Assembly (NCBI RefSeq): GCF_036826855.1
Contig: NZ_CP104578.1
Coordinates: 7,932,501-7,996,500 of the forward strand
DNA: 64,000 nt
Direction of reading: 5' to 3'
Source of the DNA: Streptomyces sp. SJL17-4
GTDB taxonomy: Bacteria > Actinomycetota > Actinomycetes > Streptomycetales > Streptomycetaceae
This document shows positions 8,213-48,997 of this stretch, one piece after another. The translations under genes and the position numbers were made by a program. The notes beneath the pieces were generated by a model. It was not told the DNA's origin and searched no databases. It saw nothing but the letters and a program-made list of their open reading frames with translations. Position 1 is the first letter of the stretch. Every line of letters begins with the position of its first letter.

Positions 8213-8257
8213 GGCCGTCCGGACCCGACCCGACCCGCCCCGAGGCTTCCGCATTTG

Positions 8258-8271
8258 TGGAACACGTTCTA
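8258..8271. promoter_or_regulatory. KstR-like operator
   Basis: TGGAACACGTTCTA matches the mycobacterial KstR consensus TnnAACnnGTTnnA at every fixed position. It lies 95 bp before the start of the FadE26-like acyl-CoA dehydrogenase gene. A second perfect match lies between the fadD19-like and echA19-like genes. Binding by a KstR-type TetR repressor is an inference. Confidence 0.55.
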
Positions 8272-8366
8272 CCGTGGCCGCCGTCGCGCGTCGCACCGAC
8301 CGACCGGTGCCGCCGAGGACCCGCAGGACCGCCGCCGCAGGACAGCCGCCACGGGAGGCCCGCCCC

Positions 8367-9557
8367 ATGCACCTCGCATACACGCCCGCTCAGAACAGCC
8401 TGCGCGCCGAGCTGCGTGCGTACTTCGCCGAGCTGGTTCCGGAGGACGTCCACACCCGCTACGCGGACCCGGCGGCGCAGAAGCGGTTCTACCGGGAGAC
8501 CGTGCGTAGGCTCGGCGCCGACGGCTGGCTCGGGGTCGGCTGGCCGATCGAGTACGGCGGGCGGGGGCTGACCCCGATGGAGCAGTTCATCTTCTTCGAC
8601 GAGGCCGCGCAGGCGGGCGTACCCCTGCCGCTCATGGCGCTGAACACCGTCGGACCGACGATCATGCGTTTCGGCACCGACGAGCAGAAGGCGTACTTCC
8701 TGCCGCGGATCCTCTCCGGCGAGATCGACTTCGCCATCGGCTACAGCGAGCCCGACGCGGGCACCGACCTCGCCGCCCTGAAGACCCGCGCGGTCCGGGA
8801 GGGGGACGAGACCACCGGTGCGTACACGGTGAACGGGCAGAAGATCTGGACCACGAACGGCGACACCGCCGACTGGGTCTGGCTCGCGGTCCGCACCGAC
8901 CCGGACGCGCCGCCGCACAAGGGCATCACGATGCTGCTCGTCCCGACGAGCGACCCCGGCTACTCCTGCACGATCATCAACACCCTCGCCTCGCACGACA
9001 CCACCGCCAGCTACTACGACAACATCGAGGTCCCCGCCTCGCGCCGGGTCGGCGACGAGAACAAGGGCTGGCGTCTGATCACCAACCAGCTCAACCACGA
9101 GCGCGTCACTCTCGCCGCCCACGGCACGATGGCGATCCGCGCGCTCCACGACGTCCAGCACTGGGCCGCCGCCACCCCGCTCACCGACGGCCGGCGCGTC
9201 ATCGACCTGCCCTGGGTCCGCCGCACCCTGGCCCGCACCCACGCCCGGCTCGACGCGATGAAACTCCTCAACTGGCAGATGGTGAACGCCGTCCAGCACG
9301 GCACCCTCACCCCCCAGGACGCCTCCGCCGTCAAGGTCTACGGCTCCGAGGCCCGCCGCGACGCCTATGCGGCCCTCATGGAGGTCGTCGGCGCGGTGGG
9401 CGCCCTCAAGGAGGGCTCGGCGGGCGCCGTCCTCCACGGTGAACTGGAACGCGGCTATCGCTCCGCCGTCATCTTCACCTTCGGCGGCGGCAACAACGAG
9501 ATCCAGCGCGAGATCATCTCCTGGATCGGCCTGGGCATGCCCCGCGTCCGCCGCTAG
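8367..9557 (+). CDS. FadE26-like acyl-CoA dehydrogenase
   Basis: 396 aa, a cytosolic FAD enzyme that introduces an alpha-beta double bond into an acyl-CoA. Motifs: GWPIEYGGRG, GYSEPDAGTDLA, KIWTTNG and TFGGGNNEIQREII near the end. The sequence is close to mycobacterial FadE26 (ChsE4), which works with FadE27 as a heterotetramer on sterol side-chain CoA thioesters. The place where homotetrameric enzymes carry the catalytic Glu (YEGT) reads FGGG here (about 372-375), fitting a subunit that needs a catalytic partner, but no partner gene is adjacent. The ATG with GGGAGG upstream was chosen; a longer frame adds 31 Arg/Pro-rich residues. A KstR-like site lies in its promoter region, linking it to the catabolic cluster at 43-49 kb. 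Confidence 0.85.
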   Translation: MHLAYTPAQNSLRAELRAYFAELVPEDVHTRYADPAAQKRFYRETVRRLGADGWLGVGWPIEYGGRGLTPMEQFIFFDEAAQAGVPLPLMALNTVGPTIMRFGTDEQKAYFLPRILSGEIDFAIGYSEPDAGTDLAALKTRAVREGDETTGAYTVNGQKIWTTNGDTADWVWLAVRTDPDAPPHKGITMLLVPTSDPGYSCTIINTLASHDTTASYYDNIEVPASRRVGDENKGWRLITNQLNHERVTLAAHGTMAIRALHDVQHWAAATPLTDGRRVIDLPWVRRTLARTHARLDAMKLLNWQMVNAVQHGTLTPQDASAVKVYGSEARRDAYAALMEVVGAVGALKEGSAGAVLHGELERGYRSAVIFTFGGGNNEIQREIISWIGLGMPRVRR

Positions 9558-9611: not shown

Positions 9612-10124
9612 TCAGTCGATGCGCGGGCTGCGCCGCTCCACGAGAACGGTGTCGCGCCAGACTCCGTGGTGGCGGCCGACGCGCTCGCGTGTGCCGATGA
9701 CCCGGAAGCCCGCACGGGCGTGGACGGCGAGGCTGGCGGCGTTCTCGGGGAAGATGCCGGACTGAATGGTCCAGATCCCCGCTGCCTCGGTGGAGTCGAT
9801 GAGCGCCTTCAGCAGCGCCGAGGCGACGCCGCGTCCCCGTGCCTCGGGGTGCACGTAGACGGAGTGTTCGACGACACCGGCGTATGCGCACCGGTCGGAG
9901 ACCTTCGTGGCGGCCACCCACCCGAGGACCCGGCCGGCCTCGTCGAGCGCGGCGAAGCGATGCTCGGGCAGCTTGGCCGCGTCGAACTGCTCCCAGGTCG
10001 GTGCGACGGTCTCGAAGGTCGCGTTGCCCTCGTCGATGCCGGCCTGGTAGATCGCGACGACCTGCTCGGCGTGGTCGGCCGTGAGGGGTGCGACGGTGAG
10101 GGCGCGGGTGGCTGATCCGGTCAT
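9612..10124 (-). CDS. GNAT N-acetyltransferase, PAT/MnaT type
   Basis: 170 aa single GNAT domain. VHPEARGRGVASALLKAL is the acetyl-CoA pyrophosphate-binding motif A, and ENAASLAVHARAGFRVIGT is the characteristic C-terminal motif. The N-terminal AIYQAGIDEGNATFET and the VWRDTVLVERR ending place it with phosphinothricin acetyltransferase/MnaT-like enzymes, which acetylate the amino group of phosphinothricin, methionine sulfoximine or similar amino acids in the cytosol. The natural substrate cannot be told from sequence. I used MTGSATRAL as the start, with GGAAG upstream; a longer frame adds 14 Arg/Pro-rich residues. It converges on the acyl-CoA dehydrogenase gene. Confidence 0.85.
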   Translation of the reverse strand: MTGSATRALTVAPLTADHAEQVVAIYQAGIDEGNATFETVAPTWEQFDAAKLPEHRFAALDEAGRVLGWVAATKVSDRCAYAGVVEHSVYVHPEARGRGVASALLKALIDSTEAAGIWTIQSGIFPENAASLAVHARAGFRVIGTRERVGRHHGVWRDTVLVERRSPRID

Positions 10125-10392: not shown

Positions 10393-11262
10393 ATGACACA
10401 GGACGCCGACCCGGGGCTCTTCGGACCCCGTTCCGTGACCTGGCAGGTGCACAGCGACCCGGTGATGTGGATCGCGGGTGTGCGGGCGCTGTGGCTGCAG
10501 GCGCTGCACCCCGTCGCCGTACGCGGCGTCATGATCAACAGCAGCTTCCGGAAGGATCCCTGGGGGCGGCTGATGCGGACCGCGGACTTCGTCGGGACCC
10601 TGAGTTACGGAACGACCGAGGCCGCCGAGGCCGCCGGGGCCCGGGTGCGCCGAATCCATCGGCGGCTCGGCGTGGACGACCCGGAGCTGCTCCTCTGGGT
10701 GCACTGCGCGGAGACCGACTCGTACCTCTCGGTCGCCCGCCGCTCGGGCATCCCCCTCACCGACGCCCAGGCCGACCGCTACGTCGGCGAACACCGCACC
10801 TCGGCGCGGCTCGTCGGGCTCGACCCGGCCACCGTCCCCGGATCCACCGCCGCGCTCGCCGCCTACTTCGAGACCGTACGCCCCCGGCTCGCCGCCGGCG
10901 CGGACGCCCGTACCGTCGAGGACTTCCTGCGCAGGCCGCCCGTGAAACCGGCGCTCGTACCGGCGCGCGAGGTGATCTGGCGGCGCGTCACGGCGCTCGC
11001 GTACGACACTCTGCCCCCCTACGCCCACGCGCTCTACGGCCGTCCCGCGCCGCCGCCGGGGACCGTCACCCGCCGCCTCGCCGCCACGGCCGACCTGCTG
11101 CGCCGCATCCCCGCCCGCCTGCGCTGGCGGCTGCCGCCCGGGCACATCCTCCGTGCCATGGACCGGCTCGGCCCGGAGACCCGGCCCGACCCTTACGCGT
11201 ACCCCGCCCCGTACCCACTGTCCGAACCGCCGTCCATACTGGAGGAGCCGGGGAAGGCGTAG
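10393..11262 (+). CDS. MpaB-type oxygenase (DUF2236, Lcp-like)
   Basis: 289 aa belonging to the DUF2236/MpaB oxygenase family, a helical haem-fold group that includes latex-clearing proteins and fungal MpaB. Typical features are GPRSVTWQVHSDPVMWIAGVR, QALHPVAVRGV, DPWGRLMRTADFV and ELLLWVHCAETDSYL. The His residues in LHPVA and VHCAE are the likely haem or structural positions of the family. There is no signal peptide, so it is cytosolic. Substrates of bacterial homologues are mostly unknown. The start has GGGAGG 7 nt upstream. The kinase-TPR gene begins 25 bp after its stop, so the two are probably co-transcribed. Confidence 0.8.
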   Translation: MTQDADPGLFGPRSVTWQVHSDPVMWIAGVRALWLQALHPVAVRGVMINSSFRKDPWGRLMRTADFVGTLSYGTTEAAEAAGARVRRIHRRLGVDDPELLLWVHCAETDSYLSVARRSGIPLTDAQADRYVGEHRTSARLVGLDPATVPGSTAALAAYFETVRPRLAAGADARTVEDFLRRPPVKPALVPAREVIWRRVTALAYDTLPPYAHALYGRPAPPPGTVTRRLAATADLLRRIPARLRWRLPPGHILRAMDRLGPETRPDPYAYPAPYPLSEPPSILEEPGKA

Positions 11263-42903: not shown

Positions 42904-44547
42904 TCAGGCGCCTGACCCGCCTGCCGGGTTCGCGTCCGCCTCCACCGCCACCGTGCGGGCCCAGCGGTAGTCCGCCTTGCCGCTGGGGGAGCGCTGGATG
43001 CGGTCGGTGAGGACCAGCTGGCGCGGGACCTTGTACCCCGCCAGGCGGGGACGGCAGTGGGTCTGGAGGGTCTCCAGGTCCAGCGGCGGGGCGTCCGCGC
43101 GGAGCTGGACGACCGCGGCGACGTGGTTGCCCCAGCGGGCGTCCGGCACTCCGGCGACCAGCGCGTCGTACACGTCGGGGTGGGACTTGAGGGCCTGCTC
43201 CACCTCCTCCGGATAGACTTTCTCGCCGCCCGTGTTGATGCACTGGGAGCCGCGCCCGAGGACGGTGACCACCCCGGTCTCGTCCACGGTCGCCATGTCG
43301 CCGAGGAGCACCCACCGGACCCCGTCCCGCTCGAAGAACGTCTCGGCGGTCTTCTCCGGGTCGTTGTAGTAGCCGAGCGGCACGTGGCCGCGCTGCGCCA
43401 GCCGGCCGATCTCGCCGGTGGCGACGGGGGTACGGGTCACAGGGTCGACGACCTGGGTGCGTTCGTTGACGTGCAGCCGGAAGCCTCTGGCGGGGCCGGA
43501 GTCGTCGGTGGCGCGGCCGTTGGAACCGGACTCGGTGGAGCCGAAGTTGTTGAGGAGGAGCACGTTCGGCATCAGCTCCTGGAGCTGGGCCCGTACGGTC
43601 TCGGACATGATCGCCCCGGAGGAGGACAGACTGAACAGTGCGGAGAGGTCCGTGCCCTTCAGCGGCCCGCGCAGCGCGTCCACGAGCGGCCGCAGCATCG
43701 CGTCCCCGACCAGGGAGATGCTGGAGACCTTCTCCTTCTCCAGGGTGCGGAGGACTTCCTCCGGGACGTACTTGCGGTGCAGGACGACCCGCTGGCCGTA
43801 GTTGAAGGCGATGAACGCGGTCAGCGTGGAGGTGCCGTGCATCAGCGGCGGCGCGGGGAAGAACGTGATGCCGGCGCCGCCGGCGGCGACCCGCTCGGCC
43901 AGCTCCTCGGGGCGCTTCACCGGTTCGCCCGAGGGATCGCCGCCGAAGAGCCCCGCGAAGAAGAGGTCCTCCTGGCGCCACAGGACACCCTTCGGCATCC
44001 CGGTCGTGCCGCCGGTGTAGATGATGAAGAGGTCGTCGGCCGAGCGGGGCCCGAAACCGCGTGCGGGTGAGCCGGTGGCCTCCGCCTCGGCGTACGGGAC
44101 GCAGTCGAGGTCGGCCGCTCCCTCGGGTAGGGCGCCCACCCGCACGAGGTGCCGCAGCTTCTCCGTCTGCGGCAGCGCCGCCGCGACCCGGTCGGTGAAC
44201 TCGGCGTCGAAGACGAGCGCGGCGAGGTCGGCGTCCCGGTAGAGGTAGACGAGCTCCTCCTCCACGTACCGGTAGTTGACGTTGACCGGCACGATCCGTG
44301 CCTTGAGGCAGGCGAGGACGGTCTGCAGGTACTCGATGCCGTTGTAGAGGTGGAGGCCGAGGTGCTCGCCGGGCCGGATGCCCGCGTCGGTGAGGTGGTG
44401 CGCGATCCGGTTGGCGGCTTCGTCGAGCTCGGCGTAGGTGAGCCGACGCTCCTCGCCCGTCCCCGGATGATCGACGTACACCAGCGCCTCGCGGTCGGGG
44501 ACCGCGTCGACCACCGATTCGAACAGGTCGGCAAGGTTGTACTCCAC
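42904..44547 (-). CDS. FadD19-like steroid side-chain acyl-CoA synthetase
   Basis: 547 aa AMP-forming ligase. P-loop YTGGTTGMPKGVLWRQED followed by LFFAGLFGGDP, a combination typical of mycobacterial FadD19/FadD17. Also GSTESGSNG, LLGDMATVDETGVVTVLGR, INTGGEKVYPEEVE and the catalytic Lys in SPSGKADYRWA. FadD19 activates the C26/C24 carboxyl of cholestenoate-type side chains and is needed for C24-branched sterols. Length equals the family norm. GTG start behind AGGAGGA. It is divergent from the echA19-like gene, as fadD19 and echA19 are in Mycobacterium tuberculosis. Assignment to sterols rests on sequence resemblance and gene order. Confidence 0.82.
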   Translation of the reverse strand: MEYNLADLFESVVDAVPDREALVYVDHPGTGEERRLTYAELDEAANRIAHHLTDAGIRPGEHLGLHLYNGIEYLQTVLACLKARIVPVNVNYRYVEEELVYLYRDADLAALVFDAEFTDRVAAALPQTEKLRHLVRVGALPEGAADLDCVPYAEAEATGSPARGFGPRSADDLFIIYTGGTTGMPKGVLWRQEDLFFAGLFGGDPSGEPVKRPEELAERVAAGGAGITFFPAPPLMHGTSTLTAFIAFNYGQRVVLHRKYVPEEVLRTLEKEKVSSISLVGDAMLRPLVDALRGPLKGTDLSALFSLSSSGAIMSETVRAQLQELMPNVLLLNNFGSTESGSNGRATDDSGPARGFRLHVNERTQVVDPVTRTPVATGEIGRLAQRGHVPLGYYNDPEKTAETFFERDGVRWVLLGDMATVDETGVVTVLGRGSQCINTGGEKVYPEEVEQALKSHPDVYDALVAGVPDARWGNHVAAVVQLRADAPPLDLETLQTHCRPRLAGYKVPRQLVLTDRIQRSPSGKADYRWARTVAVEADANPAGGSGA

Positions 44548-44631: not shown

Positions 44632-44648
44632 TCTGACTGAGTGTCAGA
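44632..44648. promoter_or_regulatory. TCTGA-N7-TCAGA operator, copy 2
   Basis: TCTGACTGAGTGTCAGA, with AA before it and AAAAC after it as in copy 1. The arms here extend to TCTGAC/GTCAGA. It lies 64 bp upstream of the echA19-like gene within the divergent promoter region. Confidence 0.6.
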
Positions 44649-44675
44649 AAACTATTGAACTGGACCCCGCGCTAC

Positions 44676-44689
44676 TGCAACCTGTTCCA
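44676..44689. promoter_or_regulatory. KstR-like operator
   Basis: TGCAACCTGTTCCA fits the mycobacterial KstR consensus TnnAACnnGTTnnA at all eight fixed positions. It lies 23 bp before the echA19-like start, in a position to block transcription of the cluster. Confidence 0.55.
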
Positions 44690-44711: not shown

Positions 44712-45521
44712 ATGGGTGGCACTGGTGGCACCGAACACCTCGGCGTACGGCGCGAAGGCGCCACGCTCGTCCTCACCTTGAACCGGCCCGAAGCCAAGAA
44801 CGCCCTCTCGCTGCCGATGCTCGTCGGCCTCTACGACGGCTGGCTGGAGGCCGACGCCGACGACGGCATCCGCTCCGTCGTCCTCACCGGCGCGGGCGGC
44901 TCGTTCTGCGCCGGCATGGACCTCAAGGCCCTGGCGGGCAAGGGAATGGAGGGCGAGCAGTACCGGGACCGGCTCAAGGCCGACCCCGATCTGCACTGGA
45001 AGGCGATGCTGCGCCACCACCGCCCCCGCAAACCCGTGATCGCCGCGGTGGAGGGGTACTGCGTCGCCGGCGGCACCGAGATCCTCCAGGGCACCGACAT
45101 CCGGGTCGCGGCCGCCTCGGCGACCTTCGGACTCTTCGAGGTCCGGCGCGGACTCTTCCCGATCGGCGGCTCCACGGTCCGCCTGCCCCGCCAGATCGCC
45201 CGTACTAACGCCCTCGAAATGCTCCTCACGGGCCGCCCGTACTCGGCGGACGAGGCCGCCAGGATCGGCCTCGTCGGCCGGGTCGTCCCCGACGGCACCG
45301 CGCTCGACGCGGCCCTCGACATCGCCGAACGGATCAACGCGTGCGGGCCGCTGGCGGTCGAGGCGGTGAAGGCGTCCGTGTACGAGACCGCCGAGATGAC
45401 GGAGACGGAGGGGCTGGCCGCCGAGCTCAAGCGAGGGTGGCCGATCTTCGACACGGCGGACGCGAAGGAGGGGGCGAGGGCGTTCGCGGAGAAGCGGACG
45501 CCGGAGTACCGGCGGGAGTGA
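44712..45521 (+). CDS. EchA19-like enoyl-CoA hydratase
   Basis: 269 aa crotonase that hydrates a trans-2-enoyl-CoA to 3-hydroxyacyl-CoA. Motifs: LTLNRPEAKNALS, GAGGSFCAGMDLKAL (oxyanion hole), AAVEGYCVAGGTEILQGTDIRVA (catalytic Glu in GGTE) and FGLFEVRRGLFPIGGSTVRL. The F-C-A-G-x-D form and the length resemble mycobacterial EchA19, the steroid side-chain hydratase. The chosen ATG has GGGAGA upstream; a longer frame adds 19 residues covering the KstR-like site. First gene of the rightward cluster. A 213-bp repeat element separates it from the DUF35 gene. Confidence 0.88.
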   Translation: MGGTGGTEHLGVRREGATLVLTLNRPEAKNALSLPMLVGLYDGWLEADADDGIRSVVLTGAGGSFCAGMDLKALAGKGMEGEQYRDRLKADPDLHWKAMLRHHRPRKPVIAAVEGYCVAGGTEILQGTDIRVAAASATFGLFEVRRGLFPIGGSTVRLPRQIARTNALEMLLTGRPYSADEAARIGLVGRVVPDGTALDAALDIAERINACGPLAVEAVKASVYETAEMTETEGLAAELKRGWPIFDTADAKEGARAFAEKRTPEYRRE

Positions 45522-45808: not shown

Positions 45809-46774
45809 ATGACGCCAACCCCCGCCTCCCCGTCGGAGACTCTCCGCGCTCCCCTCGTCGTCGAATTCCCCTTCACCCGCTCCCTCGGCCCCGTCCAGTC
45901 CGCCTTCCTCACCGGCCTCCGCGAGCGCACCGTCCTCGGCGTCCGCACCGAGACCGGAGCGGTCCTCGTCCCGCCCGTCGAGTACGACCCCGCCACCGCC
46001 GCCGAGCTCCGCGACCTCGTCGAGGTCGGCGCCACCGGCACCGTCACCACCTGGGCCTGGAACCCCGAGCCCCGCCCCGGGCAGCCCCTCCCGACCCCCT
46101 TCGCCTGGGTCCTCGTCCGCCTCGACGGCGCCGACACCGCCCTCCTGCACGCCCTCGACGCCCCCGGTCCCGAAGCCGTACGCACCGGTATGCGGGTCCG
46201 GATCCGCTGGGCCGCCGAACGCTCCGGCGCCATCACGGACATCGCCTGCTTCGAGCCGTACGACAGTGATCCCGTGGCCGAACCGGGCGCGCACGACGGC
46301 CGGTTCACCGACCCCGTCACCGGCATCGTCGCCGCCGCCCGCCTCGACTACACCTACAGCCCCGGCCGCGCCCAGACCCGCTACCTCCACGCCCTCACCG
46401 AGCGCCGGACCGTCGGCGAACGCTGCCCCTCCTGCACCAAGGTGTACGTGCCGCCCCGCGGCGCCTGCCCCACCTGCGGCATCGCCACCACCGACCAGGT
46501 CGAGGTCGGCCCGCGCGGCACCGTCACCACGTACTGCATCGTCAACATCAAGGCGAAGAATCTCGACATCGAGGTGCCGTACGTCTACGCCCACATCGCC
46601 CTCGACGGCGCCGGGCTCGCCCTCCACGGCCGCATCGGCGGCATCCCGTACGACCAGGTCCGGATGGGCCTGCGCGTCGAACCCGTGTGGAGCGAGGACG
46701 GCCGCTACCCCGACCACTACCGGCCCACCGGCGAGCCCGACGCCGACTACGACACCTACAAGGAGCTGCTGTGA
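45809..46774 (+). CDS. Double OB-fold / zinc-ribbon protein (DUF35), Ltp partner
   Basis: 321 aa with two DUF35-type OB-folds. The N-terminal one (about 10-140) lacks the zinc ribbon; the C-terminal one has the full rubredoxin-like ribbon CPSCTKVYVPPRGACPTCG followed by an OB-fold. DUF35 proteins bind thiolase-fold proteins. In mycobacteria ChsH2-DUF35 forms the steroid side-chain aldolase with Ltp2, and Rv3521 precedes ltp4-ltp3. Here too the gene is followed by two thiolase-fold genes, the first overlapping its stop by 4 bp (GTGA). Likely role: acyl-CoA docking subunit of a retro-aldolase complex, by analogy. Confidence 0.82.
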   Translation: MTPTPASPSETLRAPLVVEFPFTRSLGPVQSAFLTGLRERTVLGVRTETGAVLVPPVEYDPATAAELRDLVEVGATGTVTTWAWNPEPRPGQPLPTPFAWVLVRLDGADTALLHALDAPGPEAVRTGMRVRIRWAAERSGAITDIACFEPYDSDPVAEPGAHDGRFTDPVTGIVAAARLDYTYSPGRAQTRYLHALTERRTVGERCPSCTKVYVPPRGACPTCGIATTDQVEVGPRGTVTTYCIVNIKAKNLDIEVPYVYAHIALDGAGLALHGRIGGIPYDQVRMGLRVEPVWSEDGRYPDHYRPTGEPDADYDTYKELL

Positions 46775-47838
46775 CGCCGCACCGGCCGGACCGAGAGGTG
46801 GCGATCGTCGCCTTCGCCCAGAGCGACCACCGCCGCCGCACCGACGACCTCTCCGAGGTCGAGATGGTCATGCCCGTCCTGCACGACGTCCTGCGGCAGA
46901 CCGGCCTCAGGACCTCCGACATCGGCTTCACCTGCTCCGGCTCCTCCGACTATCTGGCCGGCCGCGCCTTCTCCTTCACGATGGCCCTCGACGGCGTCGG
47001 CGCCTGGCCGCCGATCTCCGAGTCCCACGTCGAGACGGACGGCGCCTGGGCGCTGTACGAGGCCTGGGTGAAGCTCCTCACCGGCGAGGCCGACACCGCC
47101 CTCGTCTACTCCTACGGGAAGTCCTCGCCCGGCTCCGTCCGCGACGTCCTCACCCGCCAGCTCGACCCCTATTACCTGGCCCCGCTCTGGCCGGACTCCG
47201 TCGCCCTCGCCGCCCTCCAGGCGCAGGCCCTCGTCGACGCGGGCGCCACCGACGAACCCGCCCTCGCCGCGATCGCCGCCCGCAGCCGCGAGGACGCCAC
47301 CGCGAATCCCCACGCCCAGCTGCCCGGCGCCCGCCCCCAGGGCGAGTACGTCGTCCAGCCGCTGCGCACCGGCGACTGCCCGCCCATCGGGGACGGCGCC
47401 GCCGCAGTGATCCTCGCCGCCGGCGACCGGGCCCGCGAACTCTGCGCCCGCCCCGCCTGGATCCGCGGCATGGACCACCGCATCGAGGCCCACTCCCTCG
47501 GCGTCCGCGACCTCACCGACTCGCCCTCCACCCGCCTCGCCGCCGAACGCGCCGGAGCCTTCGAGGCGCCCGTCGACACCGCCGAACTCCACGCGCCCTT
47601 CACCTCCCAGGAGGTCGTCCTCCGCCGGGCCCTCGACCTCGACGAGAGCGTGAGGGTCAACCCGTCCGGCGGAGCGCTCGCCGCCAACCCCGTCATGGCC
47701 GCCGGCCTCATCCGGCTCGGCGAGGCCGCCGCCCGCATCCACCGGGGCGACTCCGACCGCGCCCTCGCCCACGCCACCTCCGGGCCCTGCCTCCAGCAGA
47801 ACCTGGTCGCCGTCCTGGAAGGGGACTCCGATGCCTGA
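46771..47838 (+). CDS. Thiolase-fold lipid-transfer protein, Ltp4-like
   Basis: 355 aa thiolase fold (IVAFAQSDHRRR, CPPIGDGAAAVILA, VNPSGGALAANPVMAAGLIRLGEAA, HATSGPCLQQN). The position of the nucleophilic Cys of true thiolases reads VETDGAW (residues 87-93), so it cannot do thiolysis in the classical way. This is expected for the Ltp/SCPx-like aldolases that cleave the steroid side chain. Gene order and length match mycobacterial Rv3522 (Ltp4). GTG start overlapping the DUF35 stop, with AAGGAG upstream. It overlaps the next gene by 8 bp, so translation of the three is coupled. Confidence 0.8.
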   Translation: MTPHRPDREVAIVAFAQSDHRRRTDDLSEVEMVMPVLHDVLRQTGLRTSDIGFTCSGSSDYLAGRAFSFTMALDGVGAWPPISESHVETDGAWALYEAWVKLLTGEADTALVYSYGKSSPGSVRDVLTRQLDPYYLAPLWPDSVALAALQAQALVDAGATDEPALAAIAARSREDATANPHAQLPGARPQGEYVVQPLRTGDCPPIGDGAAAVILAAGDRARELCARPAWIRGMDHRIEAHSLGVRDLTDSPSTRLAAERAGAFEAPVDTAELHAPFTSQEVVLRRALDLDESVRVNPSGGALAANPVMAAGLIRLGEAAARIHRGDSDRALAHATSGPCLQQNLVAVLEGDSDA

Positions 47839-48997
47839 AGAGCCCGTCGCCGTCGTCGGCATCGGCCAGACCAAGCACGTCGCCGCACGCCGGGACGTGT
47901 CGATCGCCGGACTCGTCCGCGAGGCCGCCGTCCGAGCCCTGGAGGACGCCGAGCTGACCTGGGCGGACATCGACGCCGTCGTCATCGGCAAGGCGCCCGA
48001 CTTCTTCGAGGGCGTGATGATGCCGGAGCTCTACCTCGCCGACGCGCTCGGCGCGGTCGGCAAGCCCATGCTCCGGGTGCACACGGCAGGATCCGTCGGC
48101 GGCTCCACCGCGCTCGTCGCCGCCAACCTGGTCGCCGCCCGCGTCCACCGGACCGTCCTCACCCTGGCGTTCGAGAAACAGTCCGAGTCCAACGCCATGT
48201 GGGGCCTCTCCCTGCCCGTGCCCTTCCAGCAGCCGCTGCTCGCCGGCGCCGGAGGCTTCTTCGCCCCGCACGTGCGCGCGTACATGCGGCGGACCGGCGC
48301 GCCCGACGCGATCGGCTCCCTCGTCGCGTACAAGGACCGGCGCAACGCGCTCAAGAACCCGTACGCCCACCTCCACGAGCACGACCTCACCCTGGAGAAG
48401 GTGCAGGCCTCCCCGATGCTCTGGGACCCGATCCGCTACTCCGAGACCTGCCCTTCCTCGGACGGCGCCTGCGCGATGGTCCTCACCGACCGGACGGGCG
48501 CGGCCCGTTCGCCCCGCCCGCCCGCCTGGGTCCACGGCGGCGCGATGCGCAGCGAACCGACCCTCTTCGCGGGGAAGGACTTCGTCTCGCCGCGGGCGGG
48601 CCGGGACTGCGCCGCCGACGTCTACCGACAGGCCGGCATCACCGACCCCCGGCGGGAGATCGACGCCGTCGAGATGTACGTGCCGTTCTCCTGGTACGAG
48701 CCGATGTGGCTGGAGAACCTGGGCTTCGCGGAGGAGGGCGAGGGCTGGAAGCTCACCGAGGCAGGGGTGACCGAACTCGACGGAGACCTGCCCGTGAACC
48801 CCTCCGGCGGGGTGCTCTCCACCAACCCCATCGGAGCCTCCGGGATGATCCGCTTCGCCGAGGCCGCGCTCCAGGTACGGGGCGAGGCGGGCGAGCACCA
48901 GGTCGACGGCGCACACCGGGCCCTCGGGCACGCCTACGGAGGCGGCGCCCAGTTCTTCTCCATGTGGCTCGTGGGAGACACCCCGCCCACCGGCTGA
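47831..48997 (+). CDS. Thiolase-fold lipid-transfer protein, Ltp3-like
   Basis: 388 aa thiolase fold: VAVVGIGQTKHVAAR, AVVIGKAPDFFEG, VNPSGGVLSTNPIGASGMIRFAEAA. The nucleophile region reads HTAGSVGGSTAL (84-95) with no Cys, and the second Cys position near the end is replaced in HAYGGGAQF by Tyr. Ltp2-type aldolases are reported to use Tyr and His residues instead of Cys, so this is probably the catalytic retro-aldolase subunit acting with the DUF35 protein and the Ltp4-like partner. Matches Rv3523 (Ltp3) in order. Its start overlaps the previous gene by 8 bp. Confidence 0.82.
   Translation: MPEEPVAVVGIGQTKHVAARRDVSIAGLVREAAVRALEDAELTWADIDAVVIGKAPDFFEGVMMPELYLADALGAVGKPMLRVHTAGSVGGSTALVAANLVAARVHRTVLTLAFEKQSESNAMWGLSLPVPFQQPLLAGAGGFFAPHVRAYMRRTGAPDAIGSLVAYKDRRNALKNPYAHLHEHDLTLEKVQASPMLWDPIRYSETCPSSDGACAMVLTDRTGAARSPRPPAWVHGGAMRSEPTLFAGKDFVSPRAGRDCAADVYRQAGITDPRREIDAVEMYVPFSWYEPMWLENLGFAEEGEGWKLTEAGVTELDGDLPVNPSGGVLSTNPIGASGMIRFAEAALQVRGEAGEHQVDGAHRALGHAYGGGAQFFSMWLVGDTPPTG

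Follow-up and report, generated by a model that had tools for sequence, protein, structure and literature searches.

KstR-type palindromes in a Streptomyces genome as probable operators of a dispersed sterol side-chain module

Two palindromes in a Streptomyces genome, at 8258-8271 and 44676-44689 of a 64,000-nucleotide stretch of DNA (here, the window; G000:C1:7932501-7996500, from a one-contig genome of 8.54 Mb), are, judged from sequence, very probably operators of a KstR-type TetR repressor that controls a dispersed sterol side-chain module. In mycolic-acid bacteria, KstR is known to switch the cholesterol pathway. Our search of the open-access literature, with most subscription papers outside its scope, found no KstR regulon in Streptomyces.

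Consensus palindromes in the window and genome-wide

The two sites are as follows.

8258-8271, plus strand: putative KstR-type operator TGGAACACGTTCTA, an exact match to TnnAACnnGTTnnA, 5' of the fadE26-like gene
44676-44689, plus strand: putative KstR-type operator TGCAACCTGTTCCA, an exact match to TnnAACnnGTTnnA, between the fadD19-like and echA19-like genes

Both 14-mers lie where the initial annotation had placed them, and they are the only two exact matches to TnnAACnnGTTnnA in the window; the mean in shuffled sequences was 0.06, and 0 of 100 shuffles reached two. Based on gene boundaries from our own simple gene caller, both sites are located outside called genes, TGGAACACGTTCTA 95 bp 5' of the ATG at 8367 and TGCAACCTGTTCCA 22 bp 5' of the ATG at 44712. 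The latter had been described as a site in front of echA19, which is correct, but it also faces the divergent fadD19-like gene.

Genome-wide, TnnAACnnGTTnnA matched at 32 places compared to 5 for the reversed-pattern control. Seventeen of these matches are outside called genes, comprising the six sites of the regulon set described here, seven palindromes of a TTGAACnnGTTCAA family and four others (L036, L037, L038, and L040). Because 15 of the 32 matches are intragenic and 7 more belong to this other palindrome family, we dropped the idea that all 32 form one regulon, and a consensus match alone is far less specific than first claimed. The original argument that two perfect matches are hard to explain by chance therefore holds for the window but is insufficient by itself. 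The consensus alone is weak evidence, and it is conservation across species that carries the case. The predicted preference of consensus sites for lipid genes was recovered among the extragenic matches, 6/17 of which are at kstR or at genes resembling steroid side-chain enzymes; five of these six were examined in other genomes and were conserved to differing degree.

The TTGAACnnGTTCAA palindromes between genes are located at L018:4945 and 4986, L024:10688 and 10732, L025:4969, L033:5343, and L035:5279. Four copies make up two pairs with a spacing of 41-44 bp, and the family looks like a separate regulon that is also caught by the KstR consensus. A TetR gene of another kind adjoins the match in L036, and TGCAACCCGTTCCA is found at L040:4824, ~63 bp 5' of an alpha/beta-hydrolase-type gene.

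Predicted target genes

The predicted targets in the window are listed here; best hits both ways refer to a comparison with the 119-kb kstR region of genome G246 and were computed within the compared regions, not whole proteomes.

8367-9557, plus strand: fadE26-like acyl-CoA dehydrogenase gene (396 aa; PDB 4x28_A, 433.6 bits over residues 1-396)
42904-44547, minus strand: fadD19-like acyl-CoA synthetase gene, divergent from echA19 (NF005863, 739 bits, cut-off 543)
44712-45521, plus strand: echA19-like enoyl-CoA hydratase gene (269 aa; NF005864, 410.8 bits, cut-off of 316 reached)
45809-46774, plus strand: gene for a ChsH2-type protein with zinc ribbon and OB-fold (PF12172, PF01796; best hit both ways, 43% identity)
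46771-47838, plus strand: gene for a lipid-transfer-type thiolase, ltp4-like (NF005924, 569 bits, cut-off 419; best hit both ways, 55% identity)
47831-48997, plus strand: gene for a thiolase-domain protein, ltp3-like (NF006180, 719 bits, cut-off 514; best hit both ways, 66% identity)

The labels ltp3, ltp4, hsd4A, fadA5, and fadD19 are our assumed names for the loci so named. Likewise, we take PDB 4x28 to be FadE26-FadE27, presumably also known as ChsE4-ChsE5. The fadE26-like protein matched Tcur3483 at 426 bits, with the next other acyl-CoA dehydrogenase at 129 bits, and its gene and a G246 gene located 80 bp behind a KstR-type site are reciprocal best hits (50% identity). The L026 fadE27-type protein matched Tcur3481 at 180 bits and the other 4x28 chain at 159 bits. 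Of each of the two-gene steroid acyl-CoA dehydrogenases 4x28 and 6wy8 (Tcur3481-Tcur3483), one chain matches the window gene and the other the L026 gene, and both genes have a KstR-type site. Unlike in G246, in which the fadE27 counterpart directly follows that of fadE26, the two genes are ~3.5 Mb apart here. The FadE27-type gene (L026:3969-6327) adjoins a PaaE-like gene.

The echA19-like protein scored 367.5 bits against the EchA19 model NF051848, below its cut-off of 400, and its best PDB matches (6wyi and 4f47) are both named EchA19. The G246 gene that diverges from echA19 and the fadD19-like gene are reciprocal best hits (44.5% identity), and the divergence of these two genes over one operator is common to both genomes. 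Overall, best hits both ways with the G246 region included fadE26, fadE27, fadD19, echA19, the ChsH2-type gene, and the two thiolase genes and, further, kstR, fadE34, MaoC, SDR, cyp125 (57%), fadA5 (61%), and an Rv3520c-type F420 enzyme. Because other window genes without a nearby site also gave such hits, a best hit both ways is by itself no evidence of regulon membership. The product of cyp125 matched CYP125 structures at 515 bits versus 326 bits for CYP124. The predicted targets are spread over at least three distant regions, at 4.41, 6.03-6.08, and 7.94-7.98 Mb.

We take Rv3504 to be fadE26, Rv3515c to be fadD19, and Rv3516 to be echA19. The claim that both window sites lie upstream of genes with KstR-controlled relatives is borne out in that they correspond to mycobacterial promoters that bound KstR, as the M. 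tuberculosis probes Rv3515c/Rv3516, Rv3503c/Rv3504, and Rv3573c/Rv3574 did (PMC1995591). We note that an MpaB/Lcp rubber-oxygenase-type domain (PF09995) is encoded by the gene at 10393-11262, just past fadE26 and the gene at 9612-10124.

A divergent KstR-like regulator

The proposal had been a KstR-like regulon with its regulator elsewhere. A KstR-like TetR protein is indeed encoded 1.9 Mb away, at 6.055 Mb, together with its own conserved putative operator.

G000:C1:6055490-6056029 (L031:4452-5081), minus strand: KstR-like TetR gene (NF033703, 198.6-198.8 bits)
6056241, between divergent genes: putative operator at kstR/GT4, a strict match to TnnAACnnGTTnnA
L031:5309-6652, divergent from kstR: GT4 glycosyltransferase gene, with the putative operator ~54 bp before its start

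Among the NCBIfam models, NF033703 (cholesterol catabolism regulator KstR) matched this protein at 198.8 bits, and the runner-up model at 50 bits; by full-length score, the KstR model is thus above every other NCBIfam TetR model, which is in line with a place in the KstR clade in the broad sense. The curated cut-off of NF033703 (280 bits) was reached by the KstR-like protein in 0/61 genomes of the genus. Class-wide, 13 of 197 genomes were above this cut-off, all in family f4, which we take to be Mycobacteriaceae, and five genomes of family f26, presumably Nocardioidaceae-like, were at 260-275 bits. Among solved structures, KstR chains matched at ~144 bits over residues 17-198, below the top match, TetR protein 3bjb, which does not carry the KstR name (153 bits).

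Compared to KstR of G246, 32/50 DNA-binding residues are identical versus 44/132 (~33%) in the remainder of the protein, and the recognition helix reads GVALGTLYRYF here and DVAVGTLYRYF there. The protein scores 141 bits to this KstR and 97 bits to its paralogue, and in the regional comparison the two kstR genes are reciprocal best hits (42% identity). We rejected the possibility that it is the counterpart of the KstR paralogues of family f4, which scored at most 97 bits in G246, G107, and G207, while the KstR proteins of these genomes scored 141-142 bits. In a midpoint-rooted tree with several weak forks and long branches, the f4 paralogues cluster with f4 KstR, and the sequences of Streptomyces type are found with KstR-like proteins of other families. 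Because the regulator is below the NF033703 cut-off, has low identity outside the DNA-binding part and is placed by a weakly resolved tree, we call it a KstR co-orthologue, i.e., a putative divergent relative, and not KstR.

The gene is divergent from the GT4 glycosyltransferase gene and not from fadE34; a fadE34-like gene is located ~18 kb from kstR. The best solved match of the glycosyltransferase is 7qsg (430 bits).

Conservation of the sites in other genomes

The 30-locus sets contain only the best-scoring loci, own genome included, and the genomes are related so that the counts below are not independent events. The fadE26 site was strict in 29/30 same-genus loci and in 79/80 loci from named records (0.025 expected by shuffling); these named loci may overlap the genus genomes, and 78/80 are titled Streptomyces. 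After thinning by flank similarity, 45/46 named loci were strict. The fadE26-like protein of the window and its counterpart in Streptomyces sp. CB02980 share 98% identity. The site of kstR itself was strict in 29/30 loci and that of the fadE34-like gene in 23/23 loci from 22 genomes. The fadD19/echA19 site was strict in 16/30 orthologous loci, and its core AACnnGTT was present in 29/30; for the L026 fadE27-like site, these numbers were 21/30 and 26/30, with the site missing in 4/30.

At cyp125, the core was found in 24/27 same-genus loci and a strict site in 0/27. In our own genome, cyp125 and fadA5 are a divergent pair; AGTAACGAGTTCTA is located at 6027683, and TAGAACGCGTACTA, which has an altered core, is near fadA5. 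A further site fits the consensus perfectly:

6081379: site before a MaoC-type gene, a consensus match

A strict site is also found at maoC of one other genome (L249). In the fadE34-like operators (L132-L153), the 14-mer is often flanked by CAGA/TCTG arms, which extend the inverted repeat.

Putative promoter elements at the two sites

Both window sites are associated with candidate promoter elements.

8247-8252, plus strand: putative -35 element TTCCGC of the fadE26 promoter, 17 bp before the -10 element; the TTCC block is kept in at least 90% of 30 rows
8270-8275, plus strand: putative -10 element TACCGT of the fadE26 promoter; it overlaps the end of the operator by two bases
44655-44660, plus strand: putative -35 element TTGAAC for echA19, conserved as TTGAAc and separated by 17 bp from CAACCT
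44678-44683, plus strand: putative -10 element CAACCT inside the operator, conserved block CTGCAACCTGTTC
44632-44648, no strand assigned: second palindrome, TCTGAC-TGAGT-GTCAGA (TCTGACTGAGTGTCAGA), with arms conserved in the 30-row alignment

T makes up 13% of the window. At the fadE26 site, the final T of TAnnnT was present in 30/30 aligned loci and in 79/79 named-locus sites. Sites with GTTCTA also have TAnnnT, in either orientation, in 22/22 cases at fadE34, 26/26 at fadE27, and 29/30 at kstR. The predicted overlap of site and -10 element is the geometry of a repressor covering the -10 element, which is known from mycobacterial KstR (PMC1995591). The second palindrome, in the fadD19/echA19 intergenic region at 44632-44648, is possibly bound by a different regulator.

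Co-occurrence of kstR, the module and the sites

Based on orthologue-level matches, echA19 and cyp125 are present in the same 45 of the 61 genus genomes; for cyp125, the copy in G008 is a fragment, and weaker P450 matches in G031, G044, and G051 were excluded. fadE26 is present in 44/61, the L026 gene in 43/61, and the fadE34-like gene in 22/61 genomes (E<=1e-150; 17 candidates scored per genome). The KstR-like gene was detected in 57/61 (own genome included; E<=1e-20). Absence from the remaining four is based on up to 45 candidates scored per genome, of 60-78, and one of the four genomes is 82% complete. All four also lack the echA19 module (hypergeometric probability 0.0035, relatedness ignored). 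Twelve genomes carry kstR without the module, and kstR must therefore do something else too.

Strand matches to TAGAACnnGTTnnA, counted with G114 and G144 left out, had a mean of 8.44 (range 3-12; reversed control 1.8) in the 45 genomes with kstR and echA19, of 3.33 (range 1-5; reversed control 1.17) in the 12 genomes with kstR only, and of 2.25 (range 2-3; reversed control 0.75) in the 4 genomes lacking kstR; the ranges overlap between these groups. In the kstR-only genomes, the site at kstR is present in 11/12, and among 23 loci read of 40 matches, only two others are intergenic, one of them at maoC. In the genomes lacking kstR, 7 of 9 matches were read, and all 7 are inside genes. The GT4 gene and the operator stay with kstR in genomes without the sterol module, and this gene is the most widely kept putative target seen in the genus. 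A search of a plasmid collection, in which 1/91 records covered 80% of the query, led nowhere.

Ring-degradation enzymes

We searched for KshA and HsaC in genomes other than G114 and G144. KshA_C (PF19298) had no match in our own genome at E<=1e-10; among the 61 genus genomes, 14 had a match at this threshold and only 2 (G012 and G023) at E<=1e-80, which was reached in 18/19 controls from other genera. Similarly, our own genome lacked an HsaC match at E<=1e-30; in the genus, 10/61 genomes had one at this threshold and 2/61, again G012 and G023, at E<=1e-80, and matches were strong in 18/19 other-genus controls. One control, G243, has neither KshA nor HsaC; its KstR-like protein scores 203 bits. 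A search with NCBIfam for Hsa/Ksh genes beside KstR-like genes led nowhere. HsaABCD in G246 were named from gene order and size and are presumed identifications. As KshA and HsaC matches are lacking in our own genome at these thresholds, the regulon probably serves side-chain shortening only, and it is, on the genes found, apparently limited to side-chain degradation.

Proposed regulation and alternative explanations

We infer that the KstR-type repressor would bind the palindrome as a dimer, overlap the -10 element and thereby block transcription of the side-chain genes. In the window, fadE26, fadD19, echA19, and the ChsH2/Ltp genes would be repressed; elsewhere, fadE34, fadE27, the MaoC/SDR group, and probably cyp125/fadA5 would be. 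By analogy with mycobacteria, release would be brought about by a steroid acid from the early steps of side-chain oxidation or by the corresponding CoA ester, and CYP125 and FadD19, both in the module, would make the first such compounds. Without KshA and HsaC, removal of the side chain only would be the simplest outcome. The substrates could possibly be other acyl-CoAs.

The most serious alternative, which we nevertheless consider unlikely, is that the sites are real KstR-like operators of a regulon that serves non-sterols, e.g., polyprenoid or methyl-branched acyl-CoAs. It would fit with the scarcity of KshA and HsaC, for which our own genome has no match and only 2/61 genomes have strong ones, with a ligand part only ~33% identical to that of KstR, and with the retention of kstR and its site beside the glycosyltransferase gene in module-less genomes. 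However, the targets are specifically sterol-like, comprising both halves of a steroid-type acyl-CoA dehydrogenase, EchA19, a P450 closer to CYP125 than to CYP124, and an Rv3520c-type F420 enzyme, and a Streptomyces CYP125 hydroxylates cholesterol (PMC9728343).

The remaining alternatives concern the sites themselves. That a different TetR-family protein binds the AACnnGTT palindromes, with the KstR-like protein using another operator, could account for the occurrence of at least one other palindrome family that fits the same consensus and of a gene for another kind of TetR beside L036. We find this improbable given the conserved copy at the kstR-like gene itself (29/30), the intragenic position of all seven matches read, of nine, in the four kstR-less genomes, and a recognition helix close to that of KstR. 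Even less credible, to the point of being very improbable, is that conservation reflects core promoter elements (-10/-35) only and that the palindrome is incidental. With few exceptions, TAnnnT overlaps GTTCTA, the half nearer to the promoter, and part of the conservation is therefore due to the promoter, but the upstream AAC half is likewise preserved within the palindrome at each of the 79 fadE26 sites detected and also at fadE34, fadE27, and kstR. Moreover, the distance to the fadE26 start varies, and the palindrome itself is constant. Regulation by a KstR-type repressor of sterol side-chain genes is the reading that we prefer.

Relation to known systems

Mycobacterial KstR is Rv3574/MSMEG_6042 (Kendall et al. 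2007; PMC1995591). The predicted regulon resembles its regulon, as far as described in the accessible part of that paper, in the consensus TnnAACnnGTTnnA, a site at the promoter of the regulator itself, an operator over the -10 element, a near-identical recognition helix, and sites at counterparts of Rv3503c/Rv3504, Rv3515c/Rv3516, and fadE34. It differs in that the regulator is under the equivalog cut-off, kstR is divergent from the GT4 gene, the targets are dispersed, and KshA and HsaC have no match at the thresholds used. In addition, there are 8 TAGAACnnGTTnnA strand matches here compared to 23-43 in the 13 genomes with a KstR over the cut-off. The repressor of a KstR regulon would be expected to be released by 3-oxo-cholestenoic acid or its CoA ester (known effectors, PMC9782250).

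In S. coelicolor, SCO2319 was named a "possible orthologue" of KstR with 32% identity and no conserved synteny (PMC1995591), and it is probably the counterpart of the KstR-like regulator here. Unlike for the KstR-like gene described here, the relevant passage of that paper ties no operator or target to SCO2319, and it is the only report on SCO2319 in the open-access literature searched. CYP125A13 of Streptomyces peucetius is a CYP125 that acts on cholesterol (PMC9728343), and our own cyp125 product is likewise best matched by CYP125 structures; kstR does not occur in the accessible main text of that paper.

A comparative study placed the origin of KstR at the Mycobacterium-Rhodococcus ancestor (PMC3388012), and 55/57 Streptomyces genomes were counted as being without a steroid pathway in the accessible part of a survey (PMC4810484). 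A broader reading, which we offer tentatively and with doubt slightly outweighing confidence, is that many Streptomyces (45/61 sampled) would hold a KstR-repressed half pathway that yields acetyl- and propionyl-CoA, leaves the nucleus intact, and releases C19/C22 steroids to the soil, and that the KstR operator-regulator pair would predate that ancestor. In the same reading, the most broadly retained target would be the GT4 gene and no catabolic gene; its persistence in genomes without the module would point to an additional role, the modification of a lipid of sterol-like or polyprenoid type. If true, there would be a regulated side-chain module in many Streptomyces that pathway surveys missed, in a genus with easy genetics. 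One could then ask directly what KstR-type proteins respond to where the rings are not to be degraded, and C19/C22 steroids might be obtained by this route with their rings intact.

Finally, KstR-like genes of family f17 (L222, L223, L225, L230, L231, and L232) have GATAACGTGTTCTC, ...CCT or ...CTT, near their starts, which is possibly a variant operator.
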